Virus record (IMG/VR): IMGVR_UViG_3300028384_000391
Span: 1 to 28,388 of that record
Length of the DNA: 28,388 nt
Reading direction: 5' to 3' (one strand)
Source of the DNA: a virus
Within the stretch, counting starts at the first letter, position 1, and every line of letters begins with the position of its first letter. The notes below the pieces were generated by a model. It was not told the DNA's origin. It worked only from the letters and a program-made list of their open reading frames with translations, and ran no database searches. The position numbers and the translations under genes were made by a program. Below are positions 17,677 through 22,704 of this stretch, one piece after another.

Positions 17677-17934
<258 letters not shown>

Positions 17935-17938
17935 CCTT

Positions 17939-18010
17939 GCCCTTGTAGCTCAGTGGTAGAGCAGGGCTTTTGTAAAGCTCAGGTCGTCTGTTCAAATCAG
18001 ATCGGGGGCT
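17939..18010 (+). tRNA. tRNA-Thr (anticodon TGT)
   Basis: The acceptor GCCCTTG pairs with CGGGGGC, with two G-T wobbles. The anticodon loop TTTGTAA gives TGT (ACA). The D arm and T arm (TTCAAAT) are normal. The 72-base gene begins four bases after tRNA-Arg. No CCA is encoded; the discriminator is T. Confidence 0.93.
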
Positions 18011-18127
18011 TCTCGGATTGGCGACATCCGTGCTCACATCTCCGAGAGAAAAAAGAATCGGAAACCCAACCCATGTGAGAGAGAGGTGGGATCCCTCTTG
18101 GTGCTACCGCTGCTGACGAGTAGCGGT
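18011..18127 (+). ncRNA. Candidate structured RNA after tRNA-Thr, with possible pseudoknot
   Basis: This gene-free stretch has four mutually compatible pairings. TCTCGGA (18011-18017) pairs with TCCGAGA (18041-18047). CTCACAT (18033-18039), inside that loop, pairs with ATGTGAG (18073-18079) outside it, which is a pseudoknot topology. AGAGG (18082-18086) pairs with CCTCT (18094-18098). ACCGCTGCT (18106-18114) pairs with AGTAGCGGT (18119-18127) around the loop GACG, with a TTATTTT tail that could end transcription. No coding frame or tRNA fits. It would be freed by 3' processing of tRNA-Thr. The structure is by eye and the function is unknown. Confidence 0.45.
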
Positions 18128-18158
18128 TATTTTCAAACAATAGGCAGAACTAGAAATG

Positions 18159-18201
18159 TTCTACCTTATAAATAATGGTAGAATTAATTTTTTCTACCAT
18201 G
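18159..18201 (+). promoter_or_regulatory. Late promoter inside a three-armed hairpin that sequesters the HNH start codon
   Basis: TATAAATA (18167-18174) lies between TTCTACC (18159-18165) and GGTAGAA (18177-18183). A second TTCTACC follows at 18192-18198, immediately before the HNH ATG (18199). GGTAGAA can pair with either flanking arm. The right-hand hairpin extends to ATGGTAGAA/TTCTACCAT and includes the first two bases of the start codon. A late transcript starting near 18180 would lack most of the 5' arm. Confidence 0.65.
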
Positions 18202-18501
18202 GCAAAAGAAACTAGAACATATGCTGATCGCAGAGAAGCAAACAAAGCAAGTGTCATTAAACGACGCAAGCAAAATAAGATTGCTCTAGTTGAATATAAA
18301 GGTGGTTGCTGTGAACGATGTGGTTACGATAAGTGCATAGATGCCTTAGAGTTTCATCACATTGATCCAACAACTAAGGAAACAAAAAACCTTGGAACCA
18401 CCGCTGCTTTATCTAAACAAAAAGAAGAAGCAGATAAATGTATTCTGGTGTGTGCTAACTGTCATAGGGAGATACACCACGAATTACGCAATCCCCTGTA
18501 G
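18199..18501 (+). CDS. HNH endonuclease (probable homing endonuclease) in the tRNA cluster
   Basis: The ATG at 18199 gives 100 residues; an upstream ATG at 18175 lies inside the regulatory hairpin. The N-terminus is basic (about residues 10-30). The HNH core has C38-x2-C41 (CCERCG), LEFHHIDP (H53, H54) and CANCHREIHH (C85, C88, H89, H93), a zinc-stabilised beta-beta-alpha nuclease. Such small free-standing HNH genes in phage tRNA clusters are typical homing endonucleases. Its expression seems held to late times by the overlapping hairpin and late promoter. Its TAG stop is part of tRNA-Asn. The cleavage site is unknown. Confidence 0.85.
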   Translation: MAKETRTYADRREANKASVIKRRKQNKIALVEYKGGCCERCGYDKCIDALEFHHIDPTTKETKNLGTTAALSKQKEEADKCILVCANCHREIHHELRNPL

Positions 18502-18563
18502 CACAATGGCAGTGCGCGGAGCTGTTAACTCTGAGGTTCTTGGTTCAAGTCCAAGCGGGGGAG
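18492..18563 (+). tRNA. tRNA-Asn (anticodon GTT)
   Basis: The acceptor TCCCCTG pairs with CGGGGGA (one wobble). The anticodon stem CGGAG/CTCTG holds loop CTGTTAA, anticodon GTT. The T arm has TTCAAGT; the discriminator is G and no CCA is encoded. The first ten bases are also the end of the HNH gene, whose TAG stop occupies tRNA positions 8-10. Confidence 0.93.
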
Positions 18564-18566
18564 CCT

Positions 18567-19877: not shown

Positions 19878-20097
19878 CTCACGTCTCGGGACGACGTTAA
19901 ACTCGCCCTGGTCGGGATGGGTTTAACGACCCCTCGGGTTTCCTAGTTCCTAAAACTAGGTGGTGGATCCAAATGACCCCATGGTTTCTTGCTTCCTAAA
20001 AGCAAGTGGTGCGGATGGAGTTTACTCCCGCCTGGTTTCTTGTTTCCAGACAAAGAATAAGTGGCGAGCCTAGGGAGAAGTAACGCTCTCCCACCCT
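19878..20097 (+). ncRNA. Candidate structured RNA with tandem hairpin repeats before tRNA-Gly
   Basis: This 220-base gap has no gene but dense pairing. CGTTAAAC (19895-19902) pairs with GTTTAACG (19921-19928). Three direct repeats then begin with GGTTTC at 19937, 19983 and 20034. The first two have the identical loop TTCCTAAAA but different 5-bp stems, CCTAG/CTAGG and CTTGC/GCAAG, so the stem pairing is kept while its sequence changes. The third has CTTGT/ACAA(A)G around TTCCAG. Each is followed by GTGG, and units two and three by further hairpins (GGAG/CTCC; GGGAGA/TCTCCC). Compensated stems argue for a folded RNA; the role is unknown. Confidence 0.5.
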
Positions 20098-20172: not shown

Positions 20173-20180
20173 TATAAATA
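20173..20180 (+). promoter_or_regulatory. T4-type late promoter (TATAAATA) for the fibre genes
   Basis: A perfect T4-consensus TATAAATA lies immediately after tRNA-Gly. The expected start is about 20186, giving a 23-base leader containing GGAAAG before the ATG at 20209. Confidence 0.75.
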
Positions 20181-20208
20181 CTTTGAAGGAAAGTATAACA
20201 GGCATGTA

Positions 20209-22704
20209 ATGTCAAAGATATTAGTTAACGAACTAGTAAATTTAGCGGGTACTGATAAAGTTACCTTCGCTGAGGGTGCGAAAGTTTCTTCTGGAGAAAC
20301 TCTTGATCTGAATGGTGCTACCATTACATTATCTGATGGTGTTGGTCTTAATAATCAGTTGCTTGCATCTAGTGGATCTGGACTGAAGTGGGTTACCTTC
20401 ACGGATACTAACAGTGCATATGTATTTGCGTCGGTGAATGATGCTGTTAATGATATTAAATTAAGACTAACTGGAAGCGGAGATGCTGCTGGGCAAGTAA
20501 ATACAGTAGCTCTTACAGGTGCTGGTGGTATTAGCATCACTGAGAATGCTGGGACAATTACGTTCACTGGAAATAATACAAATACTACTTATGATTTAAT
20601 TTTTGCTGATGAAATTGATGGTGCTAGTGCTACATTAACGGGATCTGATAGTAGTGCCGACGCATTGATTCTGAAAGGTGGTAGCAATATCACTGTTTCT
20701 AGAAGCAATAATGAGATCACATTCTCCACAACATTAGCAGGAACTGTAGGTGCTCCTAGTACAGTTACTGATAATTCTATTGCATTATTTGATGGGACAG
20801 ATGGATCTTTGTTATCAGATTCCGCACTTGTTTTAGATGGCAGTAACAATCTGACAGGTGTTAATAGTATTACTACTACAGCTGATACTGCAAGTAAGAT
20901 TTCATTTTATTATGCTGATGTTGCAAGTTTTCCTGCAGCAACTGGAGCAAGAGGTTCCTTTGCATTTGCTCAGGCAACTTCCACAATGCATTATGCTGCT
21001 GGTAACTCTTGGTATCAGGTAGCAAAACTTGGTGACATTGTTCCTAATACTGATACTACTTACAGCATTGCTTTAACTGGTACGGATTTTGGTGAACTAA
21101 CTCTCACTGATTCTAATGGTATTGAGGATGATGTTTTCTTCCGAAGAAATACTTATGGTGGTGTTGAGGTAGAGAGAAATACTGAGGCATTATATTTTGA
21201 CAGCAGATTGTATTCTATTTCTGTTGAGTCTGGTGGTGGTAACTTTGCATACCTTAGATTAACAGGTGAAAACCATAACAGACTTGGTGCTGTAACTACA
21301 ACCACCACAGATAATATTACAATTACAGGTGCCGATGGTCTTACAGTTGAGAGAACTGATGCTAATACCATTACTTTAAGACAGGGAGGTGGCAGTGTAA
21401 GTCAGTATACTGATGATGATGCTAAGGATGCTGCTGGTCTGGCATTAGTTAATGGTACACAAGTGGGAATCGCTTTTACATATGATTCTGCGAATAAAGT
21501 TATTAATGCTCAGGTTGGCACGACACCCACCACATTTAGTTTTACTACTGGTGCTGATGGTACTCAAAACTATGAGATAACTGGTAGTGATCGTGGAAAC
21601 ACTTATAGTTCTTCCCTTGATCCTACTATTACTGTATATGAGGGTGACACAATTACCTTTGATAATAGTGCCACTAGGGTCAATCATCCAATGTATATCA
21701 GGGTGTCTGATGGTGGTGCTAGTGTATCAAGTCCTGCTGCCAGTGGTGAGGGAACAGCAACTACTTCTTGGACACCTACAACTGCTGGCACATATTATTA
21801 TCAGTGTGGTAATCACTCTGGAATGATTGGAACTATTACAGTTCTTTCTACTGGTGGTGGTGGCGGCGGATCTGCTGTTCTGTATGATCTTTATGGAACT
21901 AATACCACATCAAACAATGTAATTTTTAATCTTGATCCTTCTACTGGGAGCACAGATCAGATTGAACTTGCGGGTGGTGGCGATACCACAGTCAGTTGGG
22001 ACTCTGTAAACAAAAGAGCAACTATTGCTAGCACAACACCAGTTCAGTCTGACTGGAATGCTACATCAGGACTTGCTCAGATTCTGAACAAACCTACAAT
22101 TCCTTCAGCATATACATTACCTGCTGCATCAACATCAACATTGGGTGGTGTTATTCCTGATGGAACCACCATCACGGTAGATGGTAGTGGTAATATTTCT
22201 GCTGTTCCTGGTGGTTATGTTCTTCCAATTGCAAGTCCCACTGTTCTTGGTGGTATTAAAATTGGTACTGGACTTTCTATTGATGCTGGTGGTGTTGTTA
22301 CTGTTGCTTCTGGTGGTTCTGTTGGTCTCCAAGCAAGAGGAAGTTTCAATGGAACAACAACATCACTCGCTGCAAATGCAACAGCAGACCTAAATATAAC
22401 AGCGTATAAAGCGTATGTATTATTGAAGGTTGAAACTGATGCTGATGCGTGGGTCAGACTTTATACTGATGCCGCTGCTAGAACAGCAGATGCTAATCGT
22501 AGTGAAGGTGAAGATCCAGGTGCAGGTACTGGTGTTATTGCTGAAGTGAGAGGTTCTGGAGTTCTTAGAGTATCTCCAGGCGTACTTGGTTATAACAATG
22601 ATTCACCTAGTGCAACTGATACAATATATACAGCAGTTACCAATCGCAGTGGTAGCACATCAACAATTACCGTAACCATTACCGCAATCAGATTAGAGGC
22701 ATAA
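20209..22704 (+). CDS. Tail-fibre-like structural protein with a cupredoxin-like domain, 831 aa
   Basis: The ATG at 20209 follows a late promoter; an in-frame TTG at 20143 lies inside tRNA-Gly. The N-terminal 40 residues (MSKILVNELVNLAGTDKVTF) resemble the starts of two later fibre genes. Beta-rich Thr/Gly/Asp repeats follow. At about 440-550 is a cupredoxin-like domain with H493 (NHPMYI), C533, H536 and M539 (CGNHSGM), the C-x2-H-x2-M copper spacing of amicyanin. After a poly-Gly linker, fibre repeats (STLGGV...VLGGI) and a C-terminal head domain complete it. It is probably a receptor-binding or adhesin fibre. The copper site could bind metal or be a structural relic. Confidence 0.85.
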   Translation: MSKILVNELVNLAGTDKVTFAEGAKVSSGETLDLNGATITLSDGVGLNNQLLASSGSGLKWVTFTDTNSAYVFASVNDAVNDIKLRLTGSGDAAGQVNTVALTGAGGISITENAGTITFTGNNTNTTYDLIFADEIDGASATLTGSDSSADALILKGGSNITVSRSNNEITFSTTLAGTVGAPSTVTDNSIALFDGTDGSLLSDSALVLDGSNNLTGVNSITTTADTASKISFYYADVASFPAATGARGSFAFAQATSTMHYAAGNSWYQVAKLGDIVPNTDTTYSIALTGTDFGELTLTDSNGIEDDVFFRRNTYGGVEVERNTEALYFDSRLYSISVESGGGNFAYLRLTGENHNRLGAVTTTTTDNITITGADGLTVERTDANTITLRQGGGSVSQYTDDDAKDAAGLALVNGTQVGIAFTYDSANKVINAQVGTTPTTFSFTTGADGTQNYEITGSDRGNTYSSSLDPTITVYEGDTITFDNSATRVNHPMYIRVSDGGASVSSPAASGEGTATTSWTPTTAGTYYYQCGNHSGMIGTITVLSTGGGGGGSAVLYDLYGTNTTSNNVIFNLDPSTGSTDQIELAGGGDTTVSWDSVNKRATIASTTPVQSDWNATSGLAQILNKPTIPSAYTLPAASTSTLGGVIPDGTTITVDGSGNISAVPGGYVLPIASPTVLGGIKIGTGLSIDAGGVVTVASGGSVGLQARGSFNGTTTSLAANATADLNITAYKAYVLLKVETDADAWVRLYTDAAARTADANRSEGEDPGAGTGVIAEVRGSGVLRVSPGVLGYNNDSPSATDTIYTAVTNRSGSTSTITVTITAIRLEA

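Follow-up and report, generated by a model that had tools for sequence, protein, structure and literature searches.

A predicted late-only start for an HNH endonuclease gene in a cyanophage tRNA cluster

An HNH gene among tRNA genes

The window (the whole stretch of 28,388 nts that was analysed) is part of the genome of a T4-like cyanophage, with genes for ribonucleotide reductase, glucose-6-phosphate dehydrogenase and tail lysozyme, and its closest matches are Synechococcus phages. On its plus strand, between 17861 and 18639, tRNA-Arg and tRNA-Thr are followed by an HNH gene and then by tRNA-Asn and tRNA-Val (Table 1). The HNH domain (PF01844) scores 23.2 bits, above the Pfam gathering score (cut-off 21.4). 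An in-frame ATG at 18175 was rejected as the start, as it is unconserved and in most relatives a stop follows four codons on. At its other end the gene overlaps tRNA-Asn, whose bases 8–10 supply its TAG stop codon.

Table 1. Coordinates of features in and around the HNH gene
Feature	Position	Strand	Basis or comment
Sigma-70-like promoter, TTGACA-17-TATACT	17806..17834	+	11/12 consensus matches; consensus match only
tRNA-Arg (TCT)	17861..17936	+	ARAGORN, Rfam
tRNA-Thr (TGT)	17939..18010	+	ARAGORN, Rfam
Upstream hairpin, GGCAGAAC / GTTCTACC, one mismatch	18143..18165	+	Sequence, fold; 3′ side is the left arm
T4-type late promoter, TATAAATA	18167..18174	+	Sequence; same in every close relative; promoter function predicted
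Start-codon hairpin, 5′ arm, ATGGTAGAA	18175..18183	+	RNA fold
Expected late transcription start (+1)	18180	+	Six bases past the last A of TATAAATA; expected from T4 promoter geometry
Start-codon hairpin, 3′ arm, TTCTACCAT	18192..18200	+	RNA fold; covers the first two start-codon bases (A, T)
HNH start ATG	18199-18201	+	Sequence and relatives
HNH endonuclease gene, 100 aa	18199..18501	+	Pfam HNH PF01844; start set by comparison with relatives
tRNA-Asn (GTT)	18492..18565	+	ARAGORN; 10-nt overlap with the end of the HNH gene

Cyanophage genes adjacent to tRNAs often end exactly 10 nts inside the tRNA (18492–18501 and 17861–17870 in the window, and loci L117–L120), the near-universal tRNA bases U8-A9-G10 being their stop codon. 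Once such a tRNA is processed by RNase P, the overlapping mRNA would lose its stop. The idea that the overlap has a role special to the HNH gene is weakened, since other cyanophage genes likewise end at U8A9G10.

The sigma-70-like site directly upstream of tRNA-Arg is a candidate source, by its sequence, of early RNA entering the HNH gene, which is flanked by tRNAs on the same strand. A terminator-like hairpin at 18106–18127, found in a scan of the window, could intervene and might end upstream RNA ahead of the gene; it is part of an element that elsewhere lies between same-strand tRNAs. This element (18014–18136, about 120 nts) is unannotated, structured and highly conserved, being present in 17 Synechococcus phage records (80–94% identity) and at least 119 IMG/VR stretches. 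It lies within 150 nts of a tRNA in 89 of the 92 stretches checked (74 distinct sequences). It has no Rfam match, but for its consensus fold 10 pairs show double changes and the 3′ hairpin (GACG loop) covaries strongly. It is a candidate for a new small RNA in the tRNA clusters of cyanophages and may bear comparison with T4 rnaC or rnaD.

The octamer TATAAATA is directly followed by a hairpin in which 9 bp enclose a loop of 8, with the A and U of the HNH start codon paired. The earlier note had described three arms here, TTCTACC, GGTAGAA and TTCTACC, together with the ATG; all are present where it placed them, the arms at 18159–18165, 18177–18183 and 18192–18198. The 66 nts of the start region fold at −12.7 kcal/mol (z −2.74; 2 of 200 shuffles equally stable), and an Rfam search at the site returned no riboswitch or ribozyme. 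As TATAAATA occurs twice in the window against 1.67 times expected, and is thus not enriched over chance, its meaning rests on position and conservation. In T4 late promoters it sits at about −13 to −6, which would put the late start at 18180. The resulting 19-nt leader, AGAATTAATTTTTTCTACC, lacks a Shine-Dalgarno motif, so that none lies inside the 3′ arm and the stem would block the AUG itself.

The extra left arm was earlier thought to permit an alternative fold of the start region, a suggestion that does not survive. This arm has its own partner in GGCAGAAC at 18143–18150 (one mismatch), and pairing of left with middle arm, at −14.5 kcal/mol as against −18.7 for the two-hairpin fold, is 4.2 kcal/mol weaker and was discarded. 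The left arm is also missing from 17 of the 19 distinct leaders of the close HNH clade; the only relative to share it is L024, in which the upstream hairpin is perfect.

Opening of the start region in long and late RNA

For each leader the free-energy cost of opening positions −18 to +13 about the AUG was computed, for isolated RNA at 37 °C, with the RNA started either upstream or at the late promoter, and the upstream-minus-late difference was taken as the switch score. In the window the cost is 12.8 kcal/mol for RNA from upstream and 3.0 for RNA from 18180, a switch of 9.8 kcal/mol that 4 of 300 shuffled leaders match. Moving the assumed start by 2 bases either way gives late costs of 2.1–6.9 kcal/mol and leaves the conclusion unchanged. 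The positive controls, T4 gene e and segB, are described as hairpin-controlled late genes (PMC3014915; PMC2988022), and their costs fall as expected, from 18.7 to 2.6 and from 18.9 to 5.8 respectively. The probability that the AUG is unpaired proved uninformative as a measure of the switch (0.31 in long and 0.33 in late RNA of the window) and was replaced by opening energy. The window stem is short and AU-rich, and in the folding model the effect of a late start lies in stability and hardly in the pairing of the AUG as such.

The predicted course of expression is as follows. RNA started upstream would read through the tRNAs and contain both arms of the hairpin, whose 9-bp stem, by pairing the AUG, would keep ribosomes off. 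Late RNA polymerase would fire at TATAAATA and begin RNA within the 5′ arm, at about 18180; its 19-nt leader, almost unstructured and without a Shine-Dalgarno sequence, would be translatable. Synthesis of the nuclease would then be confined to the late phase, with its abundance of genome copies and recombination enzymes. The late start site, the read-through, the block to translation and the timing are what we infer here.

High switch scores are not a general property of genes behind this octamer. Among 40 non-HNH genes led by TATAAATA in phages S-H38, S-WAM2, S-SCSM2R and Syn1 the median is 1.3 kcal/mol, and four reach 8 or more. Some high scores are expected if ordinary late genes that lie on early RNA share the trick. 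Late-only start hairpins are predicted for non-HNH genes L240 (S-H38), L274 (Syn1), L260 (S-SCSM2R) and L254 (S-WAM2), with switches of 9–18 kcal/mol. Within 20173–20215 the sole other TATAAATA of the window leads the large gene past tRNA-Gly, and after it comes a smaller hairpin in the start region, ATACTTT-GAAGG-AAAGTAT, with an opening cost of 10.4 kcal/mol upstream and 5.8 late. At 19880–20075 the wcaG RNA motif (Rfam RF01761) occurs twice in tandem, with 51 and 89 bits, just ahead of tRNA-Gly and a large gene led by a late promoter.

Conservation and compensation among relatives

A scan of IMG/VR for relatives of the HNH gene gave a close group, clade A (L003–L030, about 80–85% identity), and a pattern scan for the unit of promoter and hairpin recovered the same contigs plus one more (L087). 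TATAAATA, the arms and the start are retained in all 19 distinct clade A leaders, with switches of 5.3–12.3 kcal/mol (median 7.6). The arms are nearly invariant with respect to the window: the single change in L029 replaces A-U by G-U pairing, and in the L004 type one terminal pair is lost. The spacing of the arms is 8 or 9, so members differ by one base. The earlier note had asked whether relatives lose arm complementarity while the HNH gene stays. The close leaders do not, but among distant relatives L193–L198 have lost the hairpin (switch 1.1–2.8 kcal/mol) and L162 its 5′ arm. The overlap of 10 nts with tRNA-Asn is exact in all 27 clade A records in which that tRNA is visible, the HNH gene being always 5′ of it. 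In relatives such as L005 the gap between tRNA-Gly and the promoter is only about 15 bases, which makes read-through harder to avoid there.

That the arms are alike by chance or through recent shared descent, and have no function, is very improbable. The clade A relatives are mostly close kin, and this non-independence of related sequences means that rank tests overstate significance. However, the arms have held while loops, coding third positions (59–73% identical to the window) and the sequence upstream diverged, and shuffled leaders seldom reach the natural switch (besides the window, 1 of 300 for L005 and none of 300 for each of L117, L125 and L148). Compensatory changes in a sister clade also speak against it.

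Two further HNH clades of tRNA clusters, B and C, have hairpins different from that of clade A. In clade B (S-H38, S-WAM2 and L121–L138) the hairpin is GGTATAA...TTATACC, with the promoter within the 5′ arm. The outer pairs vary on both sides and stay complementary, one G-U included, with double-sided changes in 4 of 12 pairs; 95% of cells are paired, as against 33–45% when the arms are slid. Covariation is 0.269, compared with 0.109 in shuffled and 0.02–0.09 in slid controls, and one pair is broken in L134 and its kin. The median switch is 10.4 kcal/mol (n=11). In clade C (L142–L204) the arms are unrelated, the promoter lies mostly in a long loop and a Shine-Dalgarno sequence (GAGG or GGAGG) is hidden in the 3′ arm. 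The stems of L200, L203 and L204 reach about 15 bp, and the median switch is 13.3 kcal/mol (n=35). The more distant phage L081 has CCTCT...AGAGG just past TATAAATA.

These clades bear on a different reading of the inverted repeat GGTAGAA-N-TTCTACC, as a DNA operator at which the HNH protein, or another dimer, represses the late promoter in the manner of I-TevI. An inverted repeat abutting a promoter is the classic layout of an operator, the clade A arms are nearly invariant, and repression from sites overlapping their own promoters is described for I-TevI and as probable for I-TevII and I-TevIII (PMC2988022). Yet the two arm spacings within clade A would rotate the half-sites relative to each other, the freely swapped but still complementary outer pairs of clade B, with their G-U, fit RNA pairing better than a fixed site, and in clade C the arms are unrelated and the promoter is in a long loop. 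An operator is judged unlikely.

Less likely still is that the hairpin serves mainly as a terminator, as a stabiliser of the 3′ end of the tRNA transcript or as a processing signal, with its overlap of the start codon incidental. A scan of the minus strand does score it as terminator-like, and in the phage contigs L086 and L089 TATAAATA precedes the same arms, but there a T run and a normal ribosome binding site come next. On the plus strand of the window, however, the stem is not followed by a T run, further same-strand tRNAs lie downstream, and a gene starts at this point in every close relative. The arrangement of L086 and L089, TATAAATA then a GGTAGAA/TTCTACC hairpin and an ordinary ribosome site, recurs in L092, L096, L101, L105, L108 and L109, with a T run in most of the eight. 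In contigs of this type the late promoter would, from its placement, let late RNA escape the terminator.

Control of the start codon through RNA pairing is the reading we favour, and it is probable that this is a free-standing homing endonuclease gene in a cyanomyovirus tRNA cluster with its own expression timer, the start hairpin locking RNA from upstream and late RNA being open. The sequence elements, the conservation of the arms, the compensation of pairs in a sister clade, the contrast with other late genes and the boundaries of the cassette are directly supported. The late promoter, the start-codon hairpin and the predicted absence of the 5′ arm from late RNA, as first proposed from the window, are supported by computation and by the relatives. 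As a homing endonuclease the HNH protein would be expected to cut or nick a specific site and to promote its own inheritance.

Cassette boundaries and known late switches

BLASTN homology to the window has its left limit no more than 3 bp from TATAAATA in nearly all clade A loci. Pairwise identity is 100% at TATAAATA itself, whereas upstream of it most values are near 30% (near chance). L024 alone extends the homology further upstream, across the extra hairpin. Judged by these alignments TATAAATA is the left edge of the homology common to the close HNH relatives. As homology stops near it and the sequence beyond is unrelated, the promoter-hairpin device travels with the gene. In phage Bellamy the conserved 120-nt element, which in the window precedes the HNH gene, joins tRNA-Asn directly and the gene is absent; it is absent also from Syn1, where 148 unrelated bases separate tRNA-Thr and tRNA-Asn. 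From these empty sites the gene with its promoter and hairpins is seen to have been inserted at the 5′ edge of tRNA-Asn.

The regulatory principle is already known, and the window HNH gene adds another case. In T4, genes e, soc and 49 are late genes that lie on early-transcribed RNA, where start-site hairpins silence them and late promoters release them (PMC3014915); those are resident phage genes, whereas the window gene is a mobile nuclease. The same logic was described by Edgell, Gibb and Belfort for I-TevI, I-TevII, I-TevIII, T4 segB and Aeh1 mobE (PMC2988022), so that the delay of homing endonucleases suggested earlier is predicted here too but was not new for T4-type phages. The likeness to segB is close, as it too is a homing endonuclease gene among tRNA genes with a late promoter (CATAAATA) overlapping a start hairpin, upstream RNA being locked and late RNA open. 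However, segB encodes a GIY-YIG rather than an HNH enzyme, is upstream of tRNA-Arg rather than tRNA-Asn, and has its promoter inside a longer stem that hides both Shine-Dalgarno and AUG. I-TevI, I-TevII and I-TevIII share with the window a late (or middle) promoter, a hairpin confined to the longer RNA and a translatable late RNA (PMC2988022), but are intron-encoded with a sequestered Shine-Dalgarno, and I-TevI is in addition transcriptionally autorepressed. Aeh1 mobE, likened here by its description, is also HNH and free-standing and has its ribosome binding site covered by a hairpin (PMC3014915; PMC2988022), though it lies within the ribonucleotide reductase gene. In contrast to the T4-type cases, the window stem would block the AUG itself, the promoter directly preceding the stem and the expected start lying within the 5′ arm. 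Seven of the free-standing endonucleases of T4 are reported to be cassettes that lack a promoter (PMC2988022); the boundary of the window cassette encloses both promoter and lock. A search of the open literature found no cyanophage precedent.

More tentatively, the mobile unit itself may have the late promoter and start hairpin as its left end. They would then be a portable late-only switch, allowing harmless entry into any early operon and built anew, with other hairpins, in at least three HNH clades of tRNA clusters. On this tentative reading, and with the HNH stop codon within tRNA-Asn, the block at the start would also bar ribosomes from the tRNA early in infection, and one transcript would give either tRNA or nuclease. 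The window gene and its relatives extend the control device of a few T4-group genes to cyanophages and uncultured viruses, and the homology boundaries show that it moves with the selfish gene. They also supply natural variants by the dozen, compensatory changes included, as a means of testing how such genes enter the transcription programme of their host without damaging it.
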